Origin: a virus
IMG/VR virus record: IMGVR_UViG_3300032116_009995
Span: 1-35,188 of that record
DNA length: 35,188 nucleotides
Direction: 5' to 3' (one strand)
Shown piece after piece: positions 4,477 through 30,141 of the stretch. Every line of letters starts with the position of its first letter. The first letter of the stretch is position 1. The notes under the pieces are model-generated. The model saw only the letters and a program-made list of their open reading frames with translations, ran no database searches and was not told where the DNA came from. A program made the translations under genes and the position numbers.

Positions 4477-4986
4477 GTGTGGAAACCCGCTGACAACCTA
4501 AATTGGCAAGAAAACGCTACTTGTGCAAAACCCAGCAATAGGCACGCTTTAAACTGGTTTTTTTCTAAAGACTTCAATGAAAAGTATGCAGCCAAAAATA
4601 TGTGTTTTACCTGCCCTGTTAGATCCAAATGCCTTCAATGGGCCTTGGAGCATCGTCAGATATGGGGTATATGGGGCGGTAAAGATGAAGTTGATATTCG
4701 TAGAGCTCTTTCGGTATCTTATAGCGGAGAAGAAACAAGACGCCGTAGATTTCCTAATTGTCCTTATTGCACAGCTAGGCCATCTAAACTTGAAACATCT
4801 GTAGAGCAACTTGAAGGTGGAGGAAGATGGACAACAGCTAAAGTTGTTACATGTACAGAGTGTGGATTTGCATGGAGAAGTCGTACTAGCGCTAATGCTG
4901 TAGAAGCGTATAAACTAGAACGAGAAGAAAGAACAAAACAAAGAACAAAGAAAAAGAGGAAAAAGAATGATAAGACCGCAATTTGA
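4477..4986 (+). CDS. WhiB-like regulator fused to a zinc ribbon
   Basis: 169 residues. The N-terminal WhiB domain has C16, C43, C46 and C52 with GIWGG at 64-68, so the [4Fe-4S] ligand set is complete. Unlike the 91-residue WhiB encoded at 3460, it continues into a second metal-binding module: CPYC at 95-98 and CTEC at 126-129, spaced as a zinc ribbon, then a strongly basic tail (KQRTKKKRKKN). The GTG start at 4477 has no ribosome-binding site but sits six bases after a -10-like TAATAT, suggesting leaderless translation. The 3' end overlaps the AhpD-like gene by 20 bases. By family it should contact the host sigma factor; the ribbon and tail would add DNA or protein binding, which is inference. 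I do not recall this architecture as standard for phage WhiB proteins. Confidence 0.85.
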   Translation: MWKPADNLNWQENATCAKPSNRHALNWFFSKDFNEKYAAKNMCFTCPVRSKCLQWALEHRQIWGIWGGKDEVDIRRALSVSYSGEETRRRRFPNCPYCTARPSKLETSVEQLEGGGRWTTAKVVTCTECGFAWRSRTSANAVEAYKLEREERTKQRTKKKRKKNDKTAI

Positions 4987-5500
4987 ATCCTTACAAAATG
5001 CAAAAGGTATTGTAGATGTTTTTATGGAAAAACCTCAGAAATATGCGGCAGCTCTAACCTTAGCTCAAGAAGTATTAAGAGAAGCTTCTTATTTATCTCC
5101 TTTAGATAGAGAAATAATTGCAGCATACACATCTAGACTTAATAGATGCGAATATTGCTACGGATCTCATAGGGAGTTTGTAAAATCTTTAGGAGGATCT
5201 GAACTTGATTTAAATGCCGTAGATAATGCTGGTATGTCTACAGGTCATAGGTTAGATTCTATTTTTAATTATATAACAGTTTTAACAAAAAATCCAGAAT
5301 ATGTTAGTCAAGATATGAAGCTTAGAGTTATGGAAGCTGGGTTTACAGAAGAAGAACTAAAAGATGCTATAGCTGTATGCGCTGCTTTTAATTTTTACAA
5401 TAGAATTGTAGAAGGTCATGGCATTGACTCTAATTCAGAAACTTGGAAACCATCAGCTGAAATGATAAACAATCACGGATACGATAAAAGATATAAATAA
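4967..5500 (+). CDS. AhpD-like / carboxymuconolactone decarboxylase family protein
   Basis: 177 residues with the AhpD-type redox motif C61-E-Y-C64 followed by H68, and E49 twelve residues before C61. This spacing is the same as in Mycobacterium AhpD (Glu118, Cys130, Cys133, His137), so the proton-relay residues appear intact. AhpD proteins are all-helical thiol peroxidases and adaptors that regenerate peroxiredoxins; the wider CMD family also includes decarboxylases. ATG at 4967 has AGAGGA at 4955-4960 and lies inside the end of the WhiB-fusion gene, so translation is coupled. A phage-borne copy suggests protection from peroxide during infection. The physiological electron donor cannot be inferred. 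Confidence 0.82.
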   Translation: MIRPQFESLQNAKGIVDVFMEKPQKYAAALTLAQEVLREASYLSPLDREIIAAYTSRLNRCEYCYGSHREFVKSLGGSELDLNAVDNAGMSTGHRLDSIFNYITVLTKNPEYVSQDMKLRVMEAGFTEEELKDAIAVCAAFNFYNRIVEGHGIDSNSETWKPSAEMINNHGYDKRYK

Positions 5501-6214: not shown

Positions 6215-6439
6215 ATGTTAAAACCAATGATTAGAGTGTTTGTAACAGGACACACTTATGCAGAAGTTAGTGAGAAAGCAAAACTAGCTATTGCTGAATT
6301 CTTTGATGAAAAAGAAGAAAACATTGAAAAAATTTTTACAAAGTACGATGTGGAAATGAACATCGAGCAAAATAATACACATGAAGGTGATCCTTGGTTT
6401 GCTCAGTGCTTTGTAAGAATGCCTTTTACAGCTTCTTAA
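6215..6439 (+). CDS. Small alpha/beta protein, paralogue of the 2.9-kb gene
   Basis: 74 residues from the second ATG at 6215; ATG at 6212 is equally readable, but AAGGAG at 6203-6208 is better spaced from 6215. The order is beta (IRVFVTG), helix (YAEVSEKAKLAIAEFFD), beta (YDVEMNI), beta (WFAQCFVRM). The GXXYXXXXEK...IAXFXD pattern matches the protein encoded at 2903-3109, suggesting gene duplication. The stop codon shares its TTAA with the stop of the convergent halogenase gene. Function unknown. Confidence 0.7.
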   Translation: MLKPMIRVFVTGHTYAEVSEKAKLAIAEFFDEKEENIEKIFTKYDVEMNIEQNNTHEGDPWFAQCFVRMPFTAS

Positions 6440-7857
6440 AAAAGAAACTGAGAAGAAAACTCTTTATAAGCTTCTTCAGCTTTATCATACATATCTAAAG
6501 CAATAAGGGTTTCTCTGGCTTGATCTGGGTTAATTAAGTTTAACCCAGCCAAAGACCAGTTCCACAGAGGTGCAGAAGCTCCTATATATTCTTCATAATT
6601 AAGACTTGAAGGTATTGTATGCTGACACAAAGATAAAATATCTTTTACAAATTCTGTAGAAGATTCTTCTGATTTCATATATTTCCAAAAATCGGTATCT
6701 GATCTTCCACCTTTATAATGCATAACTAAAAAATCACAATAGTCATCGTAAAGTTTTCCCATTTTTTTATTGTAAAATTTTCTATTTATTTCTGTGTTAG
6801 TTTTTTCAACCGTTTGAGTCAAATAATCGTAACAAAAAACCAACAATTGAAGAGTTGTTCCATGTATAGATGTAGCTTCTAAAGGCTCGCTAAAAGCTCC
6901 AGCAAGTCCCAAAGATAGACAATTGTTTTTCCACAGCTCTTCTGCTCTTCCAGAATCAAATTTTATAAGCTTTATTGGTTTTATCTCTCTGCCTAAAACT
7001 TTTTCTACTTCTTCTTGGGCTTTTGTTTCATCTGTATGTTCGCTACTAAAAACATATCCAGCCCCTCTTCTACTTTGTAAAGGGACATTCCACATCCAAC
7101 CGTGATCTAGAGCATGCGCTGTAGTGACAGGTTCATAATTAACACCCTCTTCATAATCTAAAAGAAAAGGAAGAGCTCTATCTACTGGCAAATGTTTTTT
7201 ATAGTGCTTCCATTTATAGCCAAGTTCTTTCATTAAAACTCTTCCAAAACCAGTGCAATCTATAAAAAAGTCTCCTTCTACTTCTGACCCGTCTTCTATC
7301 TCTACACTAGTAATGTTTCCAGATGAATTTATGTTTACTTTTTTAACTATAGAATCTATACAAGATACAAAATCTCCTATAACTAAAGACTTTAAATATT
7401 TTCCGACTTTGTTACCATCAAAATGCAAAGCTCCACCATAAGGAGGCATTCTCTCTATTTCATAAGATTGACCTATGTATGAAGCTAAATGTATTTTTTC
7501 TGATCCAAATTTAGATAAAACATAATTGAATATAATATCTGGAGACATAGTTTGTGTAGGACTGCCGTCTACAGGAGCAAAATACGAAGTTCCATCACCT
7601 TTCCAATTGACATGTCTAATACCCATTTTTCTAGTGCAGTCTGTATTAGCTGCAAAATCTTCTAGAGTAGTTCCTGGATCAAAATATTTACCCATGAGTA
7701 TGTCATAAAAAAGTCCAGTAGAAACTTCTCCAGCTCCAATAACACCTATTTTCGAGGATTCGATTACAATTATCTTGTGTTTATTAGGTTGAGATTTTGC
7801 AATAATATATGCAGCTAACCAGCCAGCTGTACCACCACCAACGATTACTATGTTCAT
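6436..7857 (-). CDS. Flavin-dependent tryptophan-halogenase-like protein
   Basis: 473 residues from the ATG at 7857. The open frame runs on to a TTG at 7878, but GGAAAGAAG lies just before 7857 and the ATG overlaps the upstream stop as ATGA, so 7857 is used. The FAD-binding GGGTAGW motif is at residues 7-13. K77, in RKMGIRHVNW, fits the position of the catalytic lysine of PrnA-type halogenases. The WMWNVP motif (about residue 260) matches the WXWXIP that marks this family and keeps NADPH-type monooxygenation out. GAFSEPLEATSIHG near residue 330 matches the glutamate-bearing flavin loop. By family it would chlorinate or brominate an aromatic substrate (often tryptophan, free or in peptides) with reduced FAD. 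No flavin reductase is visible nearby, so reduced flavin would come from the host. It is last in a long minus-strand block. Confidence 0.9.
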   Translation of the reverse strand: MNIVIVGGGTAGWLAAYIIAKSQPNKHKIIVIESSKIGVIGAGEVSTGLFYDILMGKYFDPGTTLEDFAANTDCTRKMGIRHVNWKGDGTSYFAPVDGSPTQTMSPDIIFNYVLSKFGSEKIHLASYIGQSYEIERMPPYGGALHFDGNKVGKYLKSLVIGDFVSCIDSIVKKVNINSSGNITSVEIEDGSEVEGDFFIDCTGFGRVLMKELGYKWKHYKKHLPVDRALPFLLDYEEGVNYEPVTTAHALDHGWMWNVPLQSRRGAGYVFSSEHTDETKAQEEVEKVLGREIKPIKLIKFDSGRAEELWKNNCLSLGLAGAFSEPLEATSIHGTTLQLLVFCYDYLTQTVEKTNTEINRKFYNKKMGKLYDDYCDFLVMHYKGGRSDTDFWKYMKSEESSTEFVKDILSLCQHTIPSSLNYEEYIGASAPLWNWSLAGLNLINPDQARETLIALDMYDKAEEAYKEFSSQFLF

Positions 7858-8927
7858 TGAGTGTTTTCTTCTTTCCAAGACTGTGCACAGAACATTAAAT
7901 TATCTTTTAATCTTTGGTTGTCTGGTTCTATATTAAGAGCATCTTGTGCATGCTGCAAAGCATCTTTATATTTTCCAAGGTTCCACGCTGCAATAGCAGC
8001 AAAATCATGAGGAGCAGCTCCCCAAGATTCAGCTTCGCAAAGATACTCAAGAGGTTTTTCTGTTATAGCTAAAGCTTGCTTTGCACATTCGTAAGAATTT
8101 TTCCAATCCTTACGCTCATAGTACATTTTTGTTAAATCTACCCAAGGCTCTCTTCTTCCAGGCGCTTGATCGATTGCCTTACGGAACCAGAACTCTGCTT
8201 CAGCTGGAACGCTCTTTCCAATAAAACGCATTGAAGCAGCTCTTTCTGGTGCCCAATGTGCTGTAGGAAGCTCTAAATGTCTCTTAAGTTCTCTAGCAGC
8301 TTCTTCATATTGACCGTAGAAATACAACTCTCTTCCATAATAAAAAGCATTTCGATCATTCCATGGATCTTCTTTTACAGATAAAGCAAGCAAAGGAAGG
8401 TACTGAGAACGAGATTTACTTGGGTCTGGATGATGATGAGTTTCTATTGCATCTGTCCACTCTTGAACTTCTTCCATTCCATAAACATATAAACACTCAT
8501 GAACTGGATGACGCCAACGATACCCTTTACGAGTGTGAATGTGGTCGTAACTAAATTCAAGTCCAGGTGTTCCGTCTTCATTAAAAGACCATATGTGTTT
8601 GTATCTAGGTCTTGTCACCCCGCGTTTCCATAGGTCTTCTAAAGGCTCTCTCCAGTTTGGAGTTATAACTTCATCCATATCAAGAGATATACACATATCA
8701 ATAAAATCTGGAAGTAAAGCTAGTGCAGCATTTCTAGCGTCATCAAAACGCCACGGGGCTACTTTTATATTGTGAACAACAATTCCAAGTTCTCTAGCAC
8801 GCTCTACAGTTCCGTCTGTTGACCCAGTATCAGCAATCATTAAGTAATCGGCATCTTTAGCAGCTTCAAACCATTTATCAACAAATTGACGCTCATTTAG
8901 CGCGATTGTGTATATAGCTGTTTTCAC
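7854..8927 (-). CDS. GT2 glycosyltransferase with TPR repeats
   Basis: 357 residues. The N-terminal GT-A domain has TIALNE at 7-12, the nucleotide-binding DTGSTDGT at 33-40, and the metal-binding D83-M-D85-E86. HPVHECLY and ETHHHPD follow, as in GT2 proteins that act on proteins or lipid carriers. From about residue 190 the chain is helical with TPR-like pairs (YEEAARELKRHLEL, AEFWFRKAIDQAP, YKDALQHAQDAL), a protein-binding scaffold. The GT2-TPR combination is common in phages and bacteria that glycosylate proteins. GTG at 8927 lies against the methyltransferase stop. It is in the same operon as the halogenase downstream and the methyltransferase upstream. The sugar and acceptor are unknown. 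Confidence 0.88.
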   Translation of the reverse strand: MKTAIYTIALNERQFVDKWFEAAKDADYLMIADTGSTDGTVERARELGIVVHNIKVAPWRFDDARNAALALLPDFIDMCISLDMDEVITPNWREPLEDLWKRGVTRPRYKHIWSFNEDGTPGLEFSYDHIHTRKGYRWRHPVHECLYVYGMEEVQEWTDAIETHHHPDPSKSRSQYLPLLALSVKEDPWNDRNAFYYGRELYFYGQYEEAARELKRHLELPTAHWAPERAASMRFIGKSVPAEAEFWFRKAIDQAPGRREPWVDLTKMYYERKDWKNSYECAKQALAITEKPLEYLCEAESWGAAPHDFAAIAAWNLGKYKDALQHAQDALNIEPDNQRLKDNLMFCAQSWKEENTQ

Positions 8928-9514
8928 TATACTACCTTTCTATACCAAGCTTGATATTCTTGAAAAATAAGTCTAAGTCTATCTCTATAGATACTTGAAA
9001 AAGAATCTATCGCCATTTTAGGTTCATTTTGAGGCCCAAGCTGTGCTGACCATTCATAGTCATCAAAAGCTATGATTCCACCAACATTCAAACATTCATA
9101 AGAATTTACGGCATCTTTTATAACACCATAAGCAGTATGATCCCCATCTACATATATAAAATCAAATTTTTCAGTGTTGTATTTAAAAAAATGGTCACTA
9201 GTTGCCTTATATTTTATTATTTTTCCACTGTCTCTAGCTTCCTGTGTTTTTCTGTCATACTCTTTTTCTACATCATTCCAGTCCCATTGTTTATGTAAAG
9301 GCTCATCAGAACCTTCCCATGTATCTATATCAATTAATTTTGAGTCTTTATGGGTTAATAAATTTTGATAAAGCCACATAGAAGCATCTCCTGTATATGC
9401 TCCTACCTGTAAAAAATTTACTGGTTTATCTTTATAATCTTTTAAAAGATGAGCAACAAAATTTTCCATGCCGTCAGATAAAAACCAATTTGGGTAATAT
9501 TTTGTCTCTTCCAT
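8927..9514 (-). CDS. Class I SAM-dependent methyltransferase
   Basis: 195 residues. VNFLQVGAYTGDASMWL (residues 32-48) is the glycine-rich SAM-binding loop, KLIDIDTWEG the second strand, and FIYVDGDHTAYGVIKDA (about 117-133) the motif typical of the Methyltransf_24 subgroup. GGIIAFDDYEW closes the core. These enzymes modify many small molecules and sugars, so the target cannot be read from the sequence. The ATG at 9514 follows an AAGAGAAAAG element. It is the first of three enzyme genes at the 3' end of the fibre gene block and is separated from the CBM-like protein gene by 25 bases, so it is probably co-transcribed with the tail genes and with the glycosyltransferase and halogenase. Confidence 0.85.
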   Translation of the reverse strand: MEETKYYPNWFLSDGMENFVAHLLKDYKDKPVNFLQVGAYTGDASMWLYQNLLTHKDSKLIDIDTWEGSDEPLHKQWDWNDVEKEYDRKTQEARDSGKIIKYKATSDHFFKYNTEKFDFIYVDGDHTAYGVIKDAVNSYECLNVGGIIAFDDYEWSAQLGPQNEPKMAIDSFSSIYRDRLRLIFQEYQAWYRKVV

Positions 9515-9539: not shown

Positions 9540-10166
9540 TTAGTACGGTGTTCCTCCGCTAAAACTACCATGAGATGCTCCAGTCCAAAAGCCGCCACTC
9601 GAGCCATCAAAATAACTTCCTACAGAGTTGGCTTTTTCTACCATAATAGAGTCTACATAGTAAATATCTCCAGAAGTAGTTGAAGAAGTAGATACTCGTA
9701 TAATAAAATAATCTGCAACTGAGTTTCTAGTAAATGTACCAGAAATTCTTGTCCAGTTCCCATTATCACTCAAAGAAGTTGTTCCTACATTGCCGCTAGA
9801 TACTGTCCCACTAGCAGCAAGACTTTCATATTGAAGATGTCTTAAAAAGTAATTTGAAGTAGTAGCTCCAGTTCCTAATTTTATATACGCACTTACTACA
9901 TATGTACCTTGACCTCCTAAGAAAGGTATTCTAGAAGTTGTTTGAAATCCACTTGCAGAAGTATTAGTAACTTGAAGCGCCGCTGATCCAGTATTTGATT
10001 CTGAAGTTACTCTTGTGAGAGTTGCGCCTCCAACTGACCCCCACCCAGAAGCGTCTACCTCAAAAGAAGGATTAGAAATATAATTTATTCTATAACCAAG
10101 AGCTATAGCTTCTGCAGGATTTTTAAGTGATCCAGCTCCGCTAAGTATTCCTACTGTACTTGGCAT
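9540..10166 (-). CDS. Phage tail protein with CBM4/9-like jelly-roll domain
   Basis: 208 residues. NYISNPSFEVDASGW (about residues 28-42) opens a beta-sandwich of the carbohydrate-binding-module 4/9 type, with SNTGSAALQVTN, YVVSAYIKLG and a terminal VDSIMVEKANSVGSYFDGSSGG. The last motif is one I associate with minor tail proteins of actinophages. The fold would bind host glycans. The ATG overlaps the upstream TAA as TAATG, so it is translationally coupled to the collagen-like gene before it. It has no collagen repeat of its own, unlike most of its neighbours, and may be an accessory receptor-binding or fibre-tip protein. Confidence 0.8.
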   Translation of the reverse strand: MPSTVGILSGAGSLKNPAEAIALGYRINYISNPSFEVDASGWGSVGGATLTRVTSESNTGSAALQVTNTSASGFQTTSRIPFLGGQGTYVVSAYIKLGTGATTSNYFLRHLQYESLAASGTVSSGNVGTTSLSDNGNWTRISGTFTRNSVADYFIIRVSTSSTTSGDIYYVDSIMVEKANSVGSYFDGSSGGFWTGASHGSFSGGTPY

Positions 10167-11434
10167 TAGCTAAGCGCCAAGTCTCCAGTAAGCAACCACT
10201 CGTTTGTCCCCAATTTAATTATAGAAGCGGTTGAGTACTGGGCTCTAAGTTTTGCGGTAGGAGTAGCTCTTACTGTTACTCCAGTATCTCCAACTACAGT
10301 AACTTGTCCAGATCCATATTGAACAATATCTACTCTTTGACCAACACTGTATGCTGCAGAAGAGTTTAGAGGAACAACAATATTCATTGCACTTGATTTT
10401 GTGCATTGAATAAGAGCACCAGCATCAGTTAGCAAAAGGGTGTATGTATCACCTTGAGCATTAATAGTTTGAGCTGTATCCCATTGGCCTGTTGCACCCG
10501 TAGCACCAACAGCACCAGTTGGACCTGTTACGGATGGACCAGTCGGCCCAGTCGGACCCGTAGGGCCAGTTACTGTAGAAGCAGCTCCTGTTGGCCCAAT
10601 ATTTCCTTGTGCACCTGTCGCTCCTGTAGGACCAGTTGGGCCTGTATCACCAGTAGCACCAGTAGGTCCACCAGAAGGACCAGTAGATCCTGTTGGACCA
10701 GTTGGTCCAGTCACTCCTGGGCCAGTTGGTCCAGTTACTCCTATGGGTCCTGTGGCACCAGAAAACTTTCCAGCATTAGCCCACTCTGAATTTAAATCGC
10801 TCCATATATATAAATCTTCACCTACTACATACGAGTCTCCTATATTACCTGTTGGATTATCTGCTTGTAGAAGGCCAAGGCTTGCATAAGTACCTAACAC
10901 AGTAACGCCAGATCCTTGCGGACCTGTTGGTCCACTAACTCCTTGAGGTCCTGTTGGTCCTAGTGGTCCAGTTGGTCCAGTAGGTGCAACAGTTGCTATT
11001 GTGTTAAAACCAGAACCTGTATAAAAACTTACAGCATTAGTTAAGCTATTTACCCACATATCTCCAACAGCTGGAAACCCTGGTGCTGTTGATGCATATG
11101 TAACATTTGCTCTACCAGTACTTTCAAATACTGCAGAAGCAGAAAAAGCTACATCCGAAGTGCTAGCTGCAACATAAATTTTATCTCCTACAGTTAGAGC
11201 AAATCTAAATGTCTCAAACGACTGTCCAACACTAACTTGAAGAGAATTTACAATATAAACTCTTAAAGATGGATCTCCACCAGAATCTACTGGTTCAATG
11301 TAAACAGTAGCGCCAGCAGTTACGCCTCCTTTATTAGTTATAATAACTGAAGCAACGCAAGTTACATCTGATGTAGCCATTAGTGACAATGCATTAGCTG
11401 CTGGAGTAGATACACCTAATCTTTTTGCTGGCAT
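10166..11434 (-). CDS. Collagen-like tail fibre protein with capping C-terminus
   Basis: 422 residues in three parts. The N-terminal beta domain (1-125) starts [15 protein letters not shown] and holds [17 protein letters not shown]; the same domain begins the next gene upstream. A Gly-X-Y tract rich in GPT and GAT triplets follows, broken by a short globular insert ([19 protein letters not shown] and a [14 protein letters not shown] segment). The C-terminal domain (about 320-422), [15 protein letters not shown] to [12 protein letters not shown], is closely matched by the end of the 626-residue protein encoded at 22817-24697. The triplets should form a triple helix, with the end domain as trimerisation or receptor-binding cap. 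A strong AAGGAG precedes the ATG. Confidence 0.85.
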
Positions 11435-11446
11435 TTATCTATCTCC

Positions 11447-12589
11447 TTAAATGCTATTCAATGATTTATGGGTAATGGTACCAACCATACCAGCGTGAAC
11501 ACTACATATATATCTGTAACCGCCAGAAGCTGCTGCTATAGGAACATTCCAATAAAGAGTTCCAGCAACTTTACCTTGAGCGCTAGCATCAGTTGTAACA
11601 GTTCCAGCAGAATCAACATGTATTAGTCCTGTAGAAATATCAGCAAAACCAGATCCAGTATCTGCTTGTAACTTAAAAGGATGTCCAGCATTAGCTAGAT
11701 TAAAAGCTATTGTAGCTCCGCCAAGAGCAAAAATAGTTGGGTTATCACCAGTGTAATGACTATTAAAGTTATATGCTGTAGTTCCATTATTGCTTACAGC
11801 TAATCTTGCAATAGCAGAATAGGCAACTTCATCGATAGTTATTGATGCTGCAGTTGCATCTGATGTTCCGCTAAAAGTAGAAGCCCCTGTTGCACCCGTC
11901 GCACCAGTCGCTCCCGTAGGGCCAGTTGGTCCTGTAGCACCTTCTGTTCCACCAATACCTGCTGGTCCCGTTGGACCAGTAGCGCCAGCAGCTCCAGTGG
12001 CTCCTGTAGGCCCACCTGACGGGCCAGTTGGACCTTGAGGACCAGTTGGGCCAGTAGCTCCAGTACCAGCTCCAGTTCCTACTTCTTCCCATGCGGTAGA
12101 TGTTTTTACTTCTAAAGCATCGGTTTCTGTGTTAAATCTTACATATCCAGCTTCTGCAGATGCTGGTCTTTGAGCAGTAGTTCCAGATTCTAAATAAATA
12201 GTATTGTTATCACCACGAATTACTTTATTAGTAAAAGTTTGAGCTATATTTTCTGGAAGAGCAGAATCTTCTTGAGCTATACCATTTACACTAAAAGAAG
12301 TTGTGTCAACACTTGATCTAACATAAAGAATGTCTCCAGAGTTAACAGCAAATCTAAAAGTTTCAAAAGAGCTGTTTAGAGGTATAGCAAGATTAAATGC
12401 AATATACGCATATTGAGTAGATATAACAGCATTAGCAGGTACTACCCAAATACTAACTTTACATGCAGGAGTTGCTGAAATTGCTTTACTAGCAGCTACA
12501 ACAGAAACTAAGTAAGGACTACTAAATGTTAATAAAGCTGTATCAGTATTAGCATCAGGATTTGATAAACCAAGTCTTTGTATCGGCAT
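11447..12589 (-). CDS. Collagen-like tail fibre with C-terminal cupredoxin-like domain
   Basis: 380 residues. The N-terminal domain (1-130) starts [14 protein letters not shown] and shares [18 protein letters not shown] with the neighbouring fibre protein. A GPTGP-type tract spans about 175-240. The last 138 residues look like a cupredoxin: [16 protein letters not shown] supplies a likely His ligand, and [15 protein letters not shown] supplies Cys, His and Met in C-X2-H-X2-M spacing, the spacing of amicyanin. The two ends of the protein are thus an anchor and a putative copper-binding domain. I recall related sequences in virion proteins of marine phages, but the copper has not been shown here. 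AGGAGG lies directly before the ATG. Confidence 0.8.
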
Positions 12590-12598
12590 CTTGGCCTC

Positions 12599-15500
12599 CT
12601 ATGCCTGAGCTTCAGACCATGACATCTTAGCTGATGTTAGCGTTGTGTTACCAGTTAATCTAGATACTGCAATAGTTAAAATATCTGGACCATCTGGATA
12701 GATGCTGTCACCGCCAAGAATAGAGTTTGATAACTCGAACAAAGAGCTAACATCTACAGTTGTTGTATCTTCAGCTCCACTAGCACCACCAGCTGCTTTA
12801 AAGTTATAAACCTGAACACCTCCAGAAACAGTATCGGATGCCGTATGTTCAACAATCTGAGTTAGTGAAGGAGCATCTACAGAAGTAAAGTTTAGGTTAT
12901 TCAAACGAGGGTTTAAAAGAAGTTTAGCGTCAACTAACTGAGTTGTTGATATGCCAATTTCTTTCAAACGAAGCTGCATTCGGTTAATAACATCTCTATC
13001 TCCAAGTTTTCCTGTCAAACCGCTAGAAACAGAAGGAGAAAGACGAAGAGAGATAAGAGGCTGATAGTTAGGTCCAGAACTATTGTTAAGAGATCCGTCT
13101 GGATACAAGAAATACTGATATTGAGTATTTCCTTGAGAAGTAAAATTAAGAACTTCAGCTACTGCAAGACCATTTTCTGTTACAGTTGTTTGAGCTGTTC
13201 CAGCTTTAGTAACAGTAAATGTAGTTGCATTAGTTACAGTTACTGTATATGTACCATTTACATCAAGAAGATTAGCATTAGTTATGCCATAAATTCCAAC
13301 ATACATACCATTAGAAAGTCCGTGGTTTGTGTTAGTTACAACAGTAACTGTTGTACCAGCTCTGGCTACAGTTCCTCCTACAGATATAGGTGAAGCAAAT
13401 GGTGTCAAATGAATCAAGTTAGATGAATTAACAAAAGCTTTATATTTAGTGCTATTTGTTAAATAAGACAAAGTATTTGTGCCTACTACCTGAGTTGCTG
13501 GATTAAGTGTATTAGTTCCCGGGAATCCGTTAGGAGCAATTGATTGGAACTGTAAAACATCTCCTGTTCGAAAACCGTGTGTTTGTACAGTAATTAAATC
13601 GTTTGCAAGATTTATTCCAGTAGAAGAAAACAACTTTGTGGTAGTTCCTGAAATATTTAATGTCTGGCTACCTTGAGTAAAGAGGTAAGCATTGTCGTCA
13701 TCAAAACGGCCATCCATCATAACCGAAGTACCCCAGTGGAATAGGTATGGGATATAGGTTGGATTTAGATAAGTAACAACCTCATAGCGAGCTGGCAAGT
13801 TACCAGAGCGGAAGTATGATTCATACAAGTTATTGTTGTGAACAAACTCGTGAACATACTGAACCTGACCATCGGTTGTTTTAAAACCAAAGCGAATCTT
13901 ACCCGCACCGTACCAAGAGTAATCGATATAAGCCATCTGAATCTTGCTTAGATCTAGGTTGTAACCAGTAGGTCCAGATCCATCGCATGGATCCAAAGAA
14001 AAATTCTCTTGAGGAATTCTTGTATCAACTGTCTTAGTCATGATAATACCTGATTTAGCAGGAGTAAAGGAGTGAGTAGATGTTGTTCCAACTGAAGAAA
14101 TATCCACAACTCCTACAGAATCTGGGGAAGCTTTTAATCTAAAAGAGTTATTATTAATTAGATCTATGTAGTAAGTTCTTCCGTTGATAAGACCGCCAAT
14201 AGGTTCTCCGTCAATAGAGTTATAAACTACTGGCAAGAGATTAGAAAAACCATGTCCAACAAGCTGGAATGTGTCTGTAGATGTTCTAACAACTCCAGTA
14301 GTTCCATTGCCTGGATCAAACTCTTTTTCTGTTCCAGAAGCACCTTTATATTCAGGACGAACAGACATACGAGTATTGCTTGTAATCTGAACTACTCTAT
14401 ATGATTGACCACGCATAACAATATAGTCCCCGACTGTAAGCTGGGCTTGGAAACTTGTATTAGTTCCAAAAATCAGTTCTGATCCTTGAAGAGCTGAAGC
14501 TGTACCAGCTAATTGTTGAGTAGAAGATCTACGAACTGCATAAAGTTTTTGTCCATCATACTCAAAGAACATGCCGTTCTGGAAGTCAAACATACCTGTA
14601 CGAACGGCTCCATTTGCCCATGCAGTTACAAAGAACTGAGGGAAACCATATGATCTATTTTCTACAATTGGACTGTTTGATACCATTCTAAATGTAGTTA
14701 AATCCACTACTGTTACTTGGAAATTTCCATTGTATACAGTGGAAGTGTTTCCATTAGAATCTTTTGCCTCACTTACTGTAATAGTAAGACCTGAAATCAA
14801 ACCGTGAGGTCTGCGGGTCTTACATTCAATTGTTGTAGAGCTAAATTGAGTCATACTTTCAAGGTCAATTGAAGGCTTGAAGTTGATACCACAAGAGGTT
14901 TGTAGACCCTTACCTGACTGGTAACGGAAATATTTACGAGTCTGACGAACAATCTGACCCCAAGAAGTTCCAGCACCTACAGACATTTCAACACCACCAT
15001 CAAACGGACGATGTAGAGAGTAACCCTCTGGTCTTACATATACGAATGTTGGGTATGAGTAAGAGACAGCTGAGTATGCGTTTGCATATGGACGATCTAC
15101 AGTAATCTGAGTGTCAGATCCAATAGCTGTAATTCTACGAATAATAGGTCCGATTGGAGTAGTCTTTGTTAAAGTAAATCCAGATCCAGTACCTTGAGTT
15201 GTGAAATCCAAAGCTCCTGTGTTAGCTGTAGCATCAGCAGCAGAGTTGTGAAGTGTTATTTCACTTGAAGATACAGCACGAGTAAAGTAGTAGTATCCAT
15301 CAACTAAAGGACTTGGAGATACTCCACCGTTTGCTGCGTACACAATTGTGTCACCTGTAGCAAATCCATGAGCAGCTTTAGTGATACGGTTTGTAGTTGT
15401 ATTTACATCTGCTGCAGCAAAAGTTATAGCTGTAGTAGTATTTGATGGGAAAAGACGGAATCTGTCTCCTACTTTAAGAATCTTAGAAAATGAAGTACCA

Positions 15501-18406
15501 GCTCCATTTACAAGAACAGAACCAGAAGATACAGTTACAGTACCACCGCCAGTAACATTTCCGTTAATCTGACTTGTAACAAAAGTATGGTTTACACCAG
15601 TTCCAAAGTCAGAAACAGTTAATGTAATACCAGCTGCAGCATTATCTGCAGAAGTAGCTAAACGAAGATAATCTCTGTTAACAGAAACTACATAATAATC
15701 TGTGTCATCTGTTAGACCACTGATATCTGTACCAGCTTCTCCATTTGAGTATCTAACTTCTGTTCCAGTTATAAACCCGTGAGAAGGAATTTTAAATGTA
15801 CTTAGATTTAAATCTATAGAAGATCTAGGGTTAAATGTTTTAGTAATTACTGGAACATTGCCTTTAGCTTCTACAGTAAAAGTATTAGCACTTGGAGTTG
15901 AAACGATGGTGTAAATTCCATCTGGAGTTTTGCTTAAGGATTGAAGTGAATGCACACCAACACCAGCTGGTGACTCCAGCAGATCAACAGCTGTTCCAGC
16001 TGAAGCGTTTTCTGGTGTTGTAGCAAGCTTAATGTTATCTCCGTCAATGAATATGACATAATAAGGAGTCGCAGTTGTTAAACCATTTACAACTGTTTGA
16101 CCTCGAGAGTCATAGTTTACAAGCTCTCCTTGAAGGAATCCATGTCCTGGAACTGTAATTATGTTGTTAGTAAAGTCTAAAGATGTAATAAGAAGAGACT
16201 GAGTACCAGTACCTACACCAGTAATATTTGCAATATTTGTTAAAGCTTGGTTTGTGGCAAGCTTAACAATACTGTTATCAACCTTGATGATGTAATAAGT
16301 ACCGTTGTTTGTTAAACCAGGGATAGTTGTTCCGCCACCATTTGAATATCTAACGGCTTGACCAGAAACTAATCCATGATTAGGAATGTACAAAGTATCT
16401 TCAAGTGTATTAATTGTTACGAAGATAAAGCTGTGTGCAGTTCCTGTTCCAGCAGCTGTAAAATTAATAGAAGTTGGGGAATTTAAAGATGTTTTTAGTT
16501 TAATTCTGTTAGCGTCAATAACTTCAGAAATATAATAAGTAGCTTGATCCTGTAGAGGTGCAATTGCTACGCCTCCACCAGTATCATATTGTACTGGCTG
16601 ATCCACTTGAAAACCGTGGTTGTTAATACTTAAAGTATCAGTTGCAGTATTGACAACAACTTTTCTTATTTGATCAGATGTGGCTGTTTGTCTAGAAGAA
16701 GGGATTGTTAAGTTAATAGTAGTAAATGTAGGAGATGGAGTTGTACTCAATCTATATGTAAATGTGTTTACTGTATTAATATAATAAATAATTCCATTAG
16801 ATAAGCCAGTAGGAGCAGTGCCATTAAAATTAAGAGTTACAGCTTCTCCATTAACCAAACCATGAACTGATGAACTATGGATAACATCGTTTTCTAGATC
16901 CATACTAATAGGTACAAAAGCATGTGTAGACGATCCAGCAGGAGCTATTGCAATAGCATTTGTATTATTTTGAGCATCTACTGCTGTAGGATGAACGCTG
17001 TTACCAGTTGTAAATGAAGAAATCAATGACAATACAACTTGACCTTCTCCATCTCTATAAGATGAAAGATTTGTTATTGCAGCTCCATTAAATGTAGCAA
17101 CACCATCAAAAAGACCTGTTGATGTAGCAACATTTGTTGCACTAGAAATAATGAAAGAACCGCCGCCACCACCAGATGCATTAGCTATAGTTGTACGAGC
17201 TCCTGGCCCTCCAGAGTAGCCACCACCACCACCAGATTGTCCAGCGTTGTTACCGTCAGATTGTCCACCGCCACCAAATCCACCATAACCGCCAGCACGA
17301 GTGTTAGTACTCATGGTTAATCCATCAAGAAATGACCCGCCACCAAAATCTCCAACAGTAGAGTTTTCACCTCTACCATTAAAACCTCCACCACCACCAG
17401 AACGACCACCAGCAGCACGACCACCGAAGCTCAAAGCTGTTCCTTGAATACCACCTGTGGAAGAAGTTCCACCTATCTGACTTAATACACCGTTTCTTCC
17501 CGCAGTTGTATTTGCATCTGCAGAACCTCCACCAGCAACAAACAAAGGCTCGTTACCAGTTTTACGAACTACAAATGTTCCACCACCAGAACCACTCCAT
17601 GTACCTGCAGAAACTCCCTTTTGACCGCAAGCAATTGTGATAATTTCACCTTTAGTTAAGGAAACTCTTCCTCTTACACGAGCACCTAAACCTGGAGCTG
17701 CTCCTCCAGATCCATCAAAACCAGATGCTCCATAAACATCAAATTCATAAATACCAGAAACTGGAACTGTCCAGTCTTGATAACCTTGAAATGCTCCTTG
17801 TGAAATGTAGGTTTCATCCCAGTTTCCATTTGCAGATGTATCGTAAGCAGATCTCATTTGAGCTTGAGTAGGGCCAACTCGACCAGTCTGGCCGCAAGTA
17901 GTAAATGTATGAGTATTAGAAGCTAGCGTATATAAAGCTTGAGAACCAGCAAAAGAAGATACAGAAACATTTCGTAAAAAGTATGTATTGCCGCTAGTCA
18001 ATCCAGTTAATGCAGTACCGTTTGTATAGTATTTAACTGCTTGATTTGAAGGCGTAGAAGCATCAATATTAAGCTTATTATCATAAACTCTTGGTGTATT
18101 AAAAGTAATATCTCCAGCAACAGCAGCAGTAATATTAATATCTGATCCACCCTGAGTGGTGCTAAATTTTAATTGCTGGGTGTTTTCTCTTTTAACAAAA
18201 ACAAGGGTGTCATCTGTAATACCAGTAAGTGCTCCAGTACCAGTTGAATATATAAAACCAGTACCATTTGTAAGAGCTGTAGGTATATTTTCAGCTGTTA
18301 CACCTGCAGTACCTTTATAGTAAATAAAGTCACTGTCAACATGTACATTTGTTTTACGAAATGTATGAGCTCCAGTAGAACCTACTGCCGTAACATTAAT
18401 AGGCAT
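12599..18406 (-). CDS. Giant tail protein: glycine-rich domain and HGF-type repeats
   Basis: 1935 residues, the largest gene in the window. The N-terminus (1-190) carries two TNGTALTG-type beta units. Residues about 190-465 form a glycine-rich domain opened by DWTVPVSGIYEFDVYGASG and packed with GGGG runs. Residues about 500-1075 are a tandem array of 60-90-residue repeats (HGF/HGL, then VXYXXGGG, then LXXXXXYYV, then LAT). About 1120-1560 contain a conserved core with SYPTFVYVRPEGYSLHRP and DPCDGSGPTGYNLDLSKIQ that I associate with cyanophage virion proteins. More repeats follow, and the C-terminus (about 1760-1935) has VINRMQLRLKEIGI and ISLRLSPSV. No signal peptide, no enzyme motif. It is likely a tail or baseplate fibre. 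AGAGGAT precedes the ATG. Confidence 0.85.
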   Translation of the reverse strand: MPINVTAVGSTGAHTFRKTNVHVDSDFIYYKGTAGVTAENIPTALTNGTGFIYSTGTGALTGITDDTLVFVKRENTQQLKFSTTQGGSDINITAAVAGDITFNTPRVYDNKLNIDASTPSNQAVKYYTNGTALTGLTSGNTYFLRNVSVSSFAGSQALYTLASNTHTFTTCGQTGRVGPTQAQMRSAYDTSANGNWDETYISQGAFQGYQDWTVPVSGIYEFDVYGASGFDGSGGAAPGLGARVRGRVSLTKGEIITIACGQKGVSAGTWSGSGGGTFVVRKTGNEPLFVAGGGSADANTTAGRNGVLSQIGGTSSTGGIQGTALSFGGRAAGGRSGGGGGFNGRGENSTVGDFGGGSFLDGLTMSTNTRAGGYGGFGGGGQSDGNNAGQSGGGGGYSGGPGARTTIANASGGGGGSFIISSATNVATSTGLFDGVATFNGAAITNLSSYRDGEGQVVLSLISSFTTGNSVHPTAVDAQNNTNAIAIAPAGSSTHAFVPISMDLENDVIHSSSVHGLVNGEAVTLNFNGTAPTGLSNGIIYYINTVNTFTYRLSTTPSPTFTTINLTIPSSRQTATSDQIRKVVVNTATDTLSINNHGFQVDQPVQYDTGGGVAIAPLQDQATYYISEVIDANRIKLKTSLNSPTSINFTAAGTGTAHSFIFVTINTLEDTLYIPNHGLVSGQAVRYSNGGGTTIPGLTNNGTYYIIKVDNSIVKLATNQALTNIANITGVGTGTQSLLITSLDFTNNIITVPGHGFLQGELVNYDSRGQTVVNGLTTATPYYVIFIDGDNIKLATTPENASAGTAVDLLESPAGVGVHSLQSLSKTPDGIYTIVSTPSANTFTVEAKGNVPVITKTFNPRSSIDLNLSTFKIPSHGFITGTEVRYSNGEAGTDISGLTDDTDYYVVSVNRDYLRLATSADNAAAGITLTVSDFGTGVNHTFVTSQINGNVTGGGTVTVSSGSVLVNGAGTSFSKILKVGDRFRLFPSNTTTAITFAAADVNTTTNRITKAAHGFATGDTIVYAANGGVSPSPLVDGYYYFTRAVSSSEITLHNSAADATANTGALDFTTQGTGSGFTLTKTTPIGPIIRRITAIGSDTQITVDRPYANAYSAVSYSYPTFVYVRPEGYSLHRPFDGGVEMSVGAGTSWGQIVRQTRKYFRYQSGKGLQTSCGINFKPSIDLESMTQFSSTTIECKTRRPHGLISGLTITVSEAKDSNGNTSTVYNGNFQVTVVDLTTFRMVSNSPIVENRSYGFPQFFVTAWANGAVRTGMFDFQNGMFFEYDGQKLYAVRRSSTQQLAGTASALQGSELIFGTNTSFQAQLTVGDYIVMRGQSYRVVQITSNTRMSVRPEYKGASGTEKEFDPGNGTTGVVRTSTDTFQLVGHGFSNLLPVVYNSIDGEPIGGLINGRTYYIDLINNNSFRLKASPDSVGVVDISSVGTTSTHSFTPAKSGIIMTKTVDTRIPQENFSLDPCDGSGPTGYNLDLSKIQMAYIDYSWYGAGKIRFGFKTTDGQVQYVHEFVHNNNLYESYFRSGNLPARYEVVTYLNPTYIPYLFHWGTSVMMDGRFDDDNAYLFTQGSQTLNISGTTTKLFSSTGINLANDLITVQTHGFRTGDVLQFQSIAPNGFPGTNTLNPATQVVGTNTLSYLTNSTKYKAFVNSSNLIHLTPFASPISVGGTVARAGTTVTVVTNTNHGLSNGMYVGIYGITNANLLDVNGTYTVTVTNATTFTVTKAGTAQTTVTENGLAVAEVLNFTSQGNTQYQYFLYPDGSLNNSSGPNYQPLISLRLSPSVSSGLTGKLGDRDVINRMQLRLKEIGISTTQLVDAKLLLNPRLNNLNFTSVDAPSLTQIVEHTASDTVSGGVQVYNFKAAGGASGAEDTTTVDVSSLFELSNSILGGDSIYPDGPDILTIAVSRLTGNTTLTSAKMSWSEAQA
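15220..16905 (-). repeat. Tandem array of HG[FL]-type protein repeats
   Basis: Within the 1935-residue tail protein at least six consecutive copies of a module are visible: a DTLXXXNHGF-like strand, then GXXVXYXXGG, then a loop with LTXXTXYYVXXV, then IKLAT and a spacer. Copies differ in sequence at DNA and protein level, so this is ancient internal duplication. Two or three more copies lie nearer the C-terminus and about three in the neighbouring 842-residue protein. Confidence 0.75.
17012..17839 (-). other. Glycine-rich (ALK/LTK-type) domain coding region
   Basis: This part of the 1935-residue gene codes for VPVSGIYEFDVYGASG, GLGARVRGRVSLTKGEIITI, FVVRKTG, PLFVAGGG and then dense GGGGG runs with interspersed Ser and Asn. 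The order (beta-sandwich core feeding strings of Gly) matches glycine-rich domains of receptor kinases and some phage tail tips, where Gly chains form polyglycine helices. Confidence 0.65.
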
Positions 18407-25419: not shown

Positions 25420-28400
25420 CTAGCTCACCGACATAAAGGAACCACTCACAGAGAAGATTCCAGATTGGGTTAATGATATAGGAGCGCTTCCCGTTAAAGG
25501 AGCAGCCTCTCCGTTACTTATATCTGTGTACCAAAGGGCTGCAATAGCAGAGCCTACTGGAGCTATAGCATAAATTATATATGAATCTGCTCCAAGAACA
25601 AGTCTTCCAGTCAAAACTGGCTGTGTTCCAGAAGCAGGTAAGAAAGGCAAGCTAACACTATATTGACCTGTTCCAAAATTGCTGACATTTGACATTTCAA
25701 TATAGATATCTACAGTTATATTTTGCCCATACTTTACATAATTTCCTGAACCAGGAGTTCCAGTAAAAGTCAATCCAGTTCCAGCAAATACAGGAGTATA
25801 AGAAGTTATAGTAGGAGTCCCAACAGGGCCTTGCGGACCAGTTGGACCTGTAGGACCAATTTTATCAACAATATCAATAACTCCACCAATATTTAAATCG
25901 GTGACATCCTGATAAACGATTTGGCTAGGAGCATTTAGCGGAACATCATAAACAATTACTGTATCTGTACTCGAGAGATTTCTACCTAAAGTTGTTGAGT
26001 TATTTGTCGTTCCTGGAACATTTGTTGTTGATCCAGATGCAATACGAAGTGCTAGTGAGTTAGTTACTTGAACTCCACTAACATCAAAGAACATCTTCTC
26101 ACCGCGAACTGCAACAAGGTTTGGATTATCTCCAGCTAAACCAGTTACAGAATAAGCAGATCCATTAGAAGAAATAAAGTAAGTTACTCCACCTTTTTCT
26201 CCTCTAGGACCAGTAGGACCAGTAGGTCCAGTTACATTTGATGCTGCTCCTGTTGGACCTGTAATTCCTGGGCCTGTTGGACCAGTAGGACCAGTAGGTC
26301 CAGTTACATTTGATGCGGCTCCTGTTGGTCCAGTTACAGATGGACCTGTTGCACCAGTTGGACCTGTTGGACCTGGGACTGTTGACACAGGACCAGTTGA
26401 ACCTGTTGGACCAATTAAAGCTCCAGCTTCAATCCAACCATTATTTGCGGTGTAGATATAAATTGTATTTTCTGCGTAAATAACATAAAAATCACCAACA
26501 GCACCAGCAGAAGCTCCAGCACCAGCAGCAAAGTCTGCATATGTGTTGTAAAAACCTTTAGCTTGAGATCCAACTCCTTGTGGACCTGTAGGACCTGTAA
26601 CAATTGGTCCAGTTGCACCAGTACTTCCAGTTGGCCCTGTAGGACCTTGTAAACCAGTTGATCCTGTAGGACCAGTTGGGCCTACTTGACCTGTAGCACC
26701 TGTAGGACCAGTTGCTCCACCAAACTCAGTTGTACCTACCTCAACCCAGAAACCATCGTAATAAACATATACAGCACCAGTTTCAGTTTCAAACCAAGTA
26801 TCGCCTGGAGTTGCTCCAGTAGGTGCGGTTGCATATGCAGGTACAAACTCTCCTTGCATACCAGTTGGACCTGTTGGGCCAGTCGCACCCGTAGCACCCG
26901 TCGGTCCAGTTGGACCAGTTGAACCAGTCGGACCAGTTACATTGCTTGCTGCTCCTGTTGCACCAGTAGGACCAGTAGGACCTTGAGAACCTACTGCACC
27001 TTGTTGACCTATATTTCCTTGCGGACCAGTAGCACCCGTAGCACCCGTTGCTCCCGCAGGACCTGTAATACCTCTAAATCCAGTAGGTCCAGTTGCACCT
27101 GTAACACCAGTAGCACCAGTTGGGCCTGTAGGTCCAGCATTTCCTTGTGGACCTGTTGGTCCTACAGGAGCTGCACCAGTTTCAATCCAGTAACCATCGT
27201 AGTAAACATAAACTTTTCCATTATTGCTGTTAAACCAAGCATCACCATTATCTGGAGATACTGGAGGTGTGGAATCAGCAATTGCAAAATTACCTAATTC
27301 ACCAGTTGCACCTGTAGCACCAGTCGGTCCTGTAGGTCCTGTAGCACCAGTAGCGCCTATAGAACCTGTTGGACCTTGAATATTTCCAACATTGTCCCAC
27401 TCGCTGCCTACAGCGTCCCAAACATAAAGATCACCAGCTACAAGATATCCATCTCCTGGATTTCCTGTCGGATGTGCAGCTTGTAATGAAGCAAGATCTG
27501 GATAAGAACCAAGAATAGAAACACCAGTGCCTGGAGTTCCTGTTGGACCTGTTATACCTTGAGAACCAGTTGCACCTGTTGCGCCTGTAGGGCCAGTAGG
27601 GCCAGTTGAACCTGTAAGACCAGTATTACCAGTTGGACCAGTTACACCCTGAATACCTTGTTCACCAGTAGCACCAGTTGCGCCAGTAGGACCAGTAGCT
27701 CCTGTAGCACCAGTTGCACCTATTACGCCTTGTTCACCTGTAGCACCAGTTGGACCAGTTATACCCTGAATACCTTGTGCACCAGTTGCACCCGTAGGTC
27801 CTGTAGCACCAGTAACAGAAGGTCCTGTAGCACCGACACTTCCTGTAGCTCCCGTCGGACCTGTTGGGCCTGTATCACCAGTAGCACCAGTTATTGAGTT
27901 ACCTTCAGGACCAATAGGACCTGTAGGGCCAGTTACACCTTGCGGACCTTGTGCACCTGTAGCACCAGTGATTGAATCACCTTGTGCACCCGTAGCACCA
28001 GTTGGACCAGTAGGTCCTATATCTCCTTGATCACCCTTAACACCAGTTGGACCAGTAGCACCTACTGAACCTGTAGGACCTGGCACGGTTGAAGCTGCAC
28101 CAGTTGGACCAGTTGGTCCTTGTGCACCCTGAGCACCTGTAGGACCAGTATCGCCTGGATTACCTTGAACACCTTGAGGACCGACATCACCTGTTCTAGC
28201 AAAAGTAACAATGATGTCTTCGTCATTTGAGAAGCTTGTAGCAAGACCACTTACATAAGAAACTGGAACTTTAAAGTATCCAGATTGTTCTGTTATAGCG
28301 CCTGTAATTGTGAAAAGAGCAAAGTCTGCAGAATCAGTCTTATTACTGATTCGCATATGTCCTTTGATTGGACTTGTTGAGTCATCAATAGTACGAAGGA

Positions 28401-30141
28401 ACTGCTGCACATCAATTGCGCCGTCAGCCTCGTCATCAATAAACATAAATGTTGCAAGCTGAAGATCTAAATTATTGAAACGAAGTTTTCCAGTTCCTGG
28501 ATCTGTTTCAGCTGCATTAGCTGTAAATGTGTAATCAAATGATGCACCGCCAAAATTACCTACAGGACCAGTTGCACCAGTAGGACCTGCGGCTCCAGTT
28601 GCACCAGTAGCTCCAGTTGGACCAGTTACTGTAGAAGCTGCTCCAGTAGGACCTGCTGGACCTGTATCACCAGTATTACCAATTGGACCTGTTGGACCAG
28701 TTGCGCCTTGCGGACCAGTTGCGCCAGCACCTGTTGCACCCGTAGCACCAACAGCACCAGTTGCACCTGTTGGACCTACTGGACCAGTATCACCAGTATT
28801 TCCTGTTGGACCGATTGCACCTGTTGGACCTGTTGCTCCTTGCGGACCTGTAGCTCCCGTCGCGCCTGTTGCACCTGTAGCGCCAGCTCCAGTTGCACCA
28901 GTTGCACCTGTTGGACCTACATCACCAGTATCACCTTTTACGCCAGTTGCACCAGTAGGACCTGCAACTCCTTGTGCACCAGTTGCACCTGTTGCGCCAG
29001 TAGCACCAACTGCACCAGTAGGACCTGCAGCACCAGTAGGACCAGGAACCGTACTTGGATCTCCAATAGGGCCAGTTGCACCAGTTGCACCCGTTGCACC
29101 AGTTGCACCAGTTGGGCCTTGAGCACCAACATCACCAGTGCGAGCAAAAGTAATTAATATGTCATCGTTTGCATCAAAGCTAGAAGCTAAACCAGAAACA
29201 TAAGCGCAGTTAACTTTGAAGTAACCACTCTCTTCAGTTACAGAAGAGATTGTAAATAAAGCAAAATAATTAGAATCACTCTTGCGAGTAATCTTGAAAT
29301 GTCCCTTTAAAGTGCTTGTACTATCATCAATTGTTCGTAAAAATGATTGAAGATCAATTGCTCCATCTGCTTCATCATCGATGAACATGTAAGTGGCAGC
29401 AGTTAAATCTCCATTGTTAAATTTAAGTTTTCCACTGCCCGGATCAGAATCTGTGTTATTTGTAGCAAATGTGTAATCAAATGCAGCTCCACCAAATGAG
29501 CCAGCGGGACCAGTTGCACCTGTTGGACCAGTTACATTTGAAGCAGCACCAGTTGCTCCAGTTGCACCTGTAGGGCCAGTTGCACCAGTTGGTCCTGTTA
29601 CTGTACTTGCAGCACCAGTTGCACCAGTAGGACCTGCGGGACCTGTAGATCCTGTTGCACCTGCGGGACCTGTTGCACCAGTGGCTCCAGTAGATCCAGT
29701 CGGTCCACCAGCTGGACCTGCGGGACCTGTTGGTCCTTGCGGACCTTGTGCTCCAACTAAACCACGAGGAATATCAGTGCCGAGAGGCGAGGTCGTTACT
29801 GGTTCTACCGTGTCTAGTTTTGTTATATCAACATTGGAAGCATCTCCAGTTGGGAGATAAAATCTAAAAGTATATGGACGAGCACCTTTTATACGAACTG
29901 TTGCGGTGTAATACCAACCACGAGGGCTTAAATCTAAATCATCTGTACAAGGAAGTTCTATATCAAACTCGCCAGAAGCGTCTAAAGTTACGGTGATAGG
30001 TGTAGATAGAATCGTTGCGTCATTAGCATCTTCAATTCTGCTTGAAGGTGTGAAAGTAACTGTTCCAGAAGCTGCCAGCCCAGTACTTTTTAGGTACTGC
30101 CCAAAGACCGTTCTCACACTGACATCATTGGGATATGACAT
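25420..30141 (-). CDS. Giant collagen-like tail fibre protein
   Basis: 1573 residues. The N-terminus (1-128) is a beta-sandwich starting [17 protein letters not shown] with [17 protein letters not shown], resembling minor-tail-protein leading domains in actinophages. Long Gly-X-Y tracts, dominated by GPT, GAT and GPQ, alternate with globular inserts: two copies of a 119-residue beta domain (about 215-334 and 529-648), a [21 protein letters not shown] module near 870, two YVYYDGYW/F modules near 950 and 1100, an aromatic insert near 1190-1240, and a head (about 1315-1573) with [12 protein letters not shown] and the YTPVFAGTG domain shared with the 231-residue fibre. It is the first gene of the fibre block. 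ACGGAGCG precedes the ATG. The coding DNA avoids perfect repeats by using varied Gly, Pro and Thr codons. Confidence 0.87.
28196..28555 (-). repeat. Second copy of duplicated fibre domain
   Basis: Codes for a beta domain with [35 protein letters not shown] and FARTGD, a near repeat of the region at about 29140-29496 in the same gene. DNA copies have diverged in third positions, so the duplication is not recent. Confidence 0.8.
29140..29496 (-). repeat. First copy of duplicated fibre domain
   Basis: Codes for [35 protein letters not shown] and [10 protein letters not shown], sharing most residues with the copy at about 28196-28555. Both are flanked by collagen triplets, so each is a bulb on a long rod. 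Confidence 0.8.

Follow-up and report, generated by a model that had tools for sequence, protein, structure and literature searches.

A predicted cupredoxin domain with a conserved type 1 copper ligand set at the C-terminus of a collagen-like phage tail fiber

Introduction

The known roles of blue copper sites are to carry electrons and to act as oxidase centers. Plastocyanin, amicyanin and rusticyanin (TIGR02656, TIGR02657, and TIGR03095) share with the domain described in this work the cupredoxin fold and a ligand set consisting of a His and a C-X2-H-Xn-M loop. In plastocyanin, azurin and amicyanin the first His ligand is usually followed by Asn, stellacyanin uses Gln as its axial type 1 ligand, and multicopper oxidases carry the motif HPxHLHG. 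Relative to these blue copper proteins, the domain considered here differs in being a module of phage fibers, in having His-Pro in place of His-Asn and, in the group of domains to which it belongs, in an insertion of approximately 20 residues before the ligand loop. The T1 copper domains of multicopper oxidases and of copper nitrite reductases (NirK) are among its best structural matches, and its His-Pro step recalls the HPxHLHG motif of the former; the phage domain, however, is single and sits on a fiber, and neither additional copper ligands nor catalytic domains were seen.

On phages, the same domain with the same four ligands forms the C-terminus of the cyanophage “gp9 baseplate wedge tail fiber connector” (phrog_677), which is named after a T4 baseplate protein and carries it on a baseplate protein rather than on a collagen fiber. 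In the gp9 records examined the domain is never annotated as a copper domain. A search of the open-access literature returned no description of a structural phage protein with a cupredoxin domain, and a ligand-complete module of this kind on phage fibers or baseplates appears to be undescribed there. The accessible portion of the main text of the S-SM1 virion work (Sullivan 2010) does not name gp9, that of the S-CREM1 paper holds nothing relevant, and S-CREM2, for which a virion proteome exists, has no copy of the domain in positions 40000-136000 of its record. A described system that works in a similar way, with a metal at a receptor-binding fiber tip, is the long tail fiber of T4, where the tip of gp37 reportedly holds iron, with HxH motifs found in marine phages (PMC11705849). 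The ligands and the metal differ from those considered here, and we claim no relation between the two.

Results

The fiber gene and its neighborhood

The window, i.e., the whole stretch of DNA that was analyzed, is a 35,188-base virus record. The gene under study (Table 1) encodes a protein of 380 residues that matches tail-fiber families in PHROGs (best phrog_5073, 3e-22), while its collagen-like repeat scores 24.6 bits against Pfam Collagen, slightly below the cut-off of 27.2. The repeat lies within a tail-fiber gene cassette whose adjoining genes encode fiber and structural proteins, and the protein would be located in the virion, with residues 1–176 as its likely attachment end. In PHROGs the C-terminal domain matches phrog_677, “baseplate wedge tail fiber protein connector” (6.9e-21). 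An earlier note on this DNA had placed a copper-site domain in the last 138 residues and quoted two motifs, of 13 and 15 letters, as the end of the protein; the placement agrees with the translation and both motifs are present, although the second stops 8 residues before the C-terminus.

Table 1. Positions of the fiber gene, its parts, the proposed ligand codons and other features of the window.
Feature	Position	Strand	Basis
Collagen-like fiber protein with C-terminal cupredoxin domain	11447-12589	-	ORF translation; Pfam Collagen; PHROG tail-fiber families
N-terminal fiber domain, residues 1-176	12062-12589	-	Similar N-termini in 56/102 related loci (loci partly from the same contigs)
Collagen-like GXY repeat, residues 177-239, GPT/GAT-rich	11873-12061	-	Pfam Collagen match over residues 177-236; sequence
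Predicted cupredoxin domain, residues 243-380	11450-11863	-	AF2; Foldseek against PDB; VIA-align; PDB profile searches; phrog_677
His303 codon, first proposed ligand (GHPF)	11681-11683	-	Sequence; conservation rank 9 of 98 columns
Cys362, His365 and Met368 codons, loop CSVHAGM	11486-11506	-	Sequence; column ranks 8, 7 and 3 of 98
Cys362 codon	11504-11506	-
His365 codon	11495-11497	-
Met368 codon	11486-11488	-
Stop codon of the fiber gene	11447-11449	-
Next gene: second collagen-like fiber protein, different tip	10166-11434	-	Pfam Collagen 1.4e-8; PHROG tail-fiber families
Preceding gene: 1935-aa virion structural protein	12599-18406	-	phrog_5838 5.7e-131; in 39/102 related loci (partly the same contigs)
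Ligandless cupredoxin-like paralogue	25867-26205	-	Lies between collagen runs of the 1573-aa fiber protein at 25420-30141
WhiB-like regulator	4477-4986	+	Points to an actinobacterial host

Fold and relation to the blue copper families

Structure prediction and comparison had been set beforehand as a possible refutation of a cupredoxin, and the outcome is a cupredoxin fold. AlphaFold2, run on an alignment of 69 homologues, gives a strand-rich domain with a pLDDT of 88.6 and a pTM of 0.82. In a Foldseek search against the PDB, 25 matches pass E ≤ 1e-3 and each is a cupredoxin, a multicopper oxidase or a NirK (among them rusticyanin, AcoP, amicyanin, an azurin with a CAAHAAM loop, NirK, and laccases); their TM-scores on the query are below 0.5 (0.37–0.49 for the matches listed) and their rmsd values large. 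VIA-align, which re-examines the rows returned by Foldseek, aligns the model to a NirK with a Z of 10.2 and an rmsd of 3.2 over 114 residues. The named viral models that match the domain are mainly cyanophage fiber, baseplate and protease proteins. As modeled, the window domain has the Greek-key beta-barrel fold of the cupredoxins.

At the level of sequence, profiles were needed for the comparison because phmmer with the single sequence picked up no relevant PDB chain. With a profile of 17 rows the top-ranking PDB chains are NirK, plastocyanin and amicyanin, at E values from 5.2e-5, and a profile of 69 rows finds NirK at 1.3e-5 and plastocyanin at 7.8e-5. In the plastocyanin alignments listed, the profile columns for Cys, His and Met coincide with the C..H..M loop of plastocyanin, and in one of them (6yez, with the 17-row profile) the first-His column falls on the plastocyanin His as well. 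Taken singly at E ≤ 0.01, the 69 members match the NCBIfam models of plastocyanin (20), amicyanin (13), and rusticyanin (6), and 22 of them match Pfam Copper-bind. The window domain itself matches no NCBIfam model at that threshold, the amicyanin model TIGR02657 included, and reaches 15.3 bits against PF00127 (Copper-bind), a match that spans the final part of the domain and stays below the cut-off of 21.2. The predicted relation to blue copper proteins is therefore significant for the family profile and not for the window domain alone.

The earlier note had likened the site to that of amicyanin in particular. The ligand spacing does fit, as seen from the PDB titles (amicyanin M98A, P94F, and P96G, and the azurin with the CAAHAAM loop). 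Among the 179 domains read directly as HCHM (see below), 174 have a C-X2-H-X2-M loop and 5 a C-X2-H-X3-M loop. An identity with amicyanin was rejected, however, since TIGR02657 is unmatched and Pro comes directly behind the first His in every one of the 179 domains, so that the Asn usual in plastocyanin, azurin and amicyanin is absent throughout. What remains of the comparison is the spacing; the domain is classed here as a cupredoxin and not as an amicyanin, the superfamily itself being long known.

Distribution and architecture

Of 50,697 phage records, 254 contain the domain by tblastn at E ≤ 1e-3; they are assigned to Synechococcus (199), Cyanophage (38), Prochlorococcus (16), and Actinomycetia (1). 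It is thus widespread in cyanophages and also present in bacterial proteins, which contradicts the view, previously expressed for this locus, that such a domain on a fiber tip is unusual. In most of the 60 matches listed, the protein carrying the domain is annotated as gp9, tail fiber connector or baseplate wedge; other carriers include a peptidase S8 of S-BM3, a fiber-like protein of P-SSM2, and the podovirus P-GSP1. The A1 alignment was too diverse for contig scans and the narrower alignments A2–A4 were used. Scans of IMG/VR gave 289, at least 500, and at least 586 relatives, counts which may overlap between scans, and contigs of bacterial and archaeal genomes gave 47 loci. Several of the 13 proteins listed from the latter contigs look secreted or lipoprotein-like, several having lipoprotein-like or hydrophobic leaders, and some look viral. 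A lipoprotein-like bacterial protein from Muricauda (L306) has the cupredoxin at its C-terminus, preceded by repeats which we take to be of a secreted type. Phage-like fiber proteins with the domain were also seen on contigs in Euryarchaeota and Gammaproteobacteria MAGs (L275, L276), which are probably viral contigs within the MAG bins.

Of the 44 ligand-complete cases in the window's group, 41 carry the domain at the C-terminus, and 21 have a strict, uninterrupted collagen run of at least five triplets upstream. The corresponding counts for the C-terminal position are 36 of 66 in the A3 group and 27 of 35 in the A4 group. Since 28 of the 66 A3-type phage domains are not C-terminal, the “tip” position is not universal, and the module is, as judged from these sequences, a mobile one that favors protein ends. 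In a tree of 97 rows and 108 columns, whose deep forks are unresolved, the actinophage-type domains group together (19 of 20 rows, support 100/100) on a long branch of 1.12 changes per column, and cellular and phage rows are otherwise intermixed.

Ligand conservation and ligandless relatives

The four proposed ligands are His303, Cys362, His365, and Met368, with the last three in a loop of the form C-X2-H-X2-M. To follow them across the family, a profile blind to the four ligands, whose columns were masked, was searched against all ORFs of 327 loci and the window, and removal of domains shorter than 70 residues and of copies more than 90% identical reduced 361 domains to 194. All four ligands are kept in 182 of these 194 non-redundant phage and bacterial domains, 179 being read directly as HCHM and 3 (the second copy in L191, L193, and L278) as HCHM past the profile end. 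Two domains are HCHQ, three are degenerate (the first copies in L185, L191, and L192), five have none of the four ligands (L149, L008, L159, L181, and L171) and two are broken or truncated (L320, L146). Within the window's group 42 of 43 domains are ligand-complete, the exception being a paralogue in the gene that adjoins that of L008. An alignment of homologues had been proposed earlier as a check on the four residues, and this outcome agrees with their conservation, as do the column ranks given in Table 1; the pattern thus goes beyond a chance resemblance.

It is also worth considering how the ligands are lost. The change from Met to Gln is the only single change, and among the 194 domains there is none that has lost exactly one of His, Cys and His. 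This change is what one expects for an axial type 1 ligand, and the PDB contains, by its title, a copper form of amicyanin M98Q. As read from sequence, the type 1 (blue) copper ligand set of the fiber tip is intact, and it is conserved near-universally and in a nearly all-or-none manner. Ligandless relatives are probably under-counted in these numbers because the sample is dominated by searches seeded with ligand-bearing members: the A3 and A4 scan patterns included ligand residues and are so biased to conserved ligands, while the A2 patterns did not, apart from 21 loci of the A2 group that came from another search, some patterns of which included ligand residues. The invariance of the ligands in the alignment used for AlphaFold2 (A5) was discounted, since that alignment was mostly picked from four-ligand domains and the argument would be circular. 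A count of 229 rows made with a profile that was not blind to the ligands was likewise left aside. In open frames of 2105 residues in L185, L191, L192, and L193 the domain is repeated several times; the first copy is degenerate and a later one intact or nearly so.

The window also holds a ligandless cupredoxin-like paralogue (Table 1), which was found by the family profile (iE 1.3e-5), and five further orthologue loci (L323–L327) keep its signature without the four ligands. Comparison of the copper family with the ligandless group by hhalign (A5 vs. A6) gives a probability of 95%. The AlphaFold2 model of the paralogue, built from its own six sequences only, has a middling pLDDT of 72.7, and Foldseek places AcoP and plastocyanin first, at E values of 1.3e-3 and weaker. 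In L008 the adjoining fiber gene carries at its end a further copy (4952-5248) with all four ligands changed (to S, S, N, and Q).

These relatives bear directly on a reading in which the domain is an adhesin by virtue of its fold only, the barrel being a stable binding scaffold and the ligands an inherited core feature with no role for a metal. The paralogue of the window, its five orthologue loci, the gene adjoining that of L008 and four other cases of ligand loss show that ligandless versions occur in the family, and as those in phage fibers keep the fold signature, the fold can serve fibers without metal. Idle ligands, however, should decay singly, whereas the set is complete in nearly all domains and the losses are mostly joint, and the ligands persist in the actinophage clade even though it sits on such a long branch. 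We consider the scaffold reading unlikely. The paralogue indicates that the fold does not need a metal, and the retention of all four ligands where they occur points to a metal function; the ligands are probably kept for a metal, and this is the strongest argument for function that we can offer. The ligandless paralogues also constitute a natural control for the role of the metal.

Discussion

The reading that we favor, at a probability of roughly 60%, is that the fiber ends in a genuine cupredoxin with intact type 1 ligands, which at the C-terminal tip of a collagen-like tail fiber would serve as a metallated docking head. The collagen stem would make the fiber a trimer, so that three copper sites would cluster at the tip. 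The bound metal would be copper, and it would hold the contact face in a set shape around the second histidine, which is exposed; contact of the tip with the host surface is suggested by its position alone. Electron transfer is possible in such a docking head and is unneeded for it.

By analogy with the iron proposed for T4 fibers, the bound copper might instead be offered as a lure, so that a copper-uptake or redox protein on the host surface grips the tip. In favor of this, copper is in short supply in natural waters and is regulated there. The iron at the tip of the T4 long fiber, together with the HxH motifs of marine phages, provides a precedent (PMC11705849). For the present virus, the host is a probable one and the receptor putative. 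A buried type 1 site, moreover, binds copper tightly and hands it over poorly, and we regard the lure as improbable to about the same degree as the scaffold.

Less probable still is that the tip works as a redox element, swapping electrons with a host surface protein or sensing redox state and so triggering infection. The complete type 1 ligand set and the loop of amicyanin length in 174 of 179 domains are what such an element would have, and Ala, Gly and Ser make up 82% of the positions between the second His and Met, small residues that would keep the His edge accessible for a partner. No redox partner gene, however, was seen within the 35,188-base window, and the module also occurs at internal positions of proteins and on baseplate proteins, for which it is difficult to conceive of a single common redox task. 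A structural clip made by another metal (zinc, nickel or iron) seems equally doubtful: the sequence excludes none of them and recombinant cupredoxins are able to bind zinc through His2-Cys plus a weak axial ligand, but the axial Met, with Met to Gln as the sole single change, fits type 1 copper, as the M98Q amicyanin in the PDB illustrates.

Selection appears to keep the same ligand set on virus fibers and on baseplate proteins. A bolder reading, and a rather unlikely one, is that the adsorption apparatus of many aquatic phages holds redox-active blue copper centers that recognize a copper or electron-transfer protein on the host surface, which would be an undescribed class of receptor; if true, part of the protein-bound copper in natural waters would reside in virus particles. 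The domain has carriers in cultured isolates, among them the lake-actinobacterium phage DSL-LC01 and model cyanophages with the overlooked “gp9” domain, and the questions of whether copper is required for phage attachment and whether a viral pool would store copper are now approachable.

The virus itself probably infects Actinobacteria (Actinomycetota). The primase of the record shares 62% identity, across 67% of its length, with that of the Actinomycetia phage DSL-LC01, from lake water, and approximately 48–51% with those of large Microbacterium phages, and the DSL-LC01 cassette matches in its collagen proteins, cupredoxin domain, tryptophan halogenase, glycosyltransferase and WhiB. The WhiB-like regulator, the kinship of the primase and this shared cassette together make an actinobacterial host likely. 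In the window, genes for a tryptophan halogenase, a beta-1,4-glycosyltransferase, and a methyltransferase follow directly after the fiber genes (6436-9514, minus strand), and the same enzymes lie beside fibers in related loci too. These enzymes might modify the Thr-rich collagen repeats.
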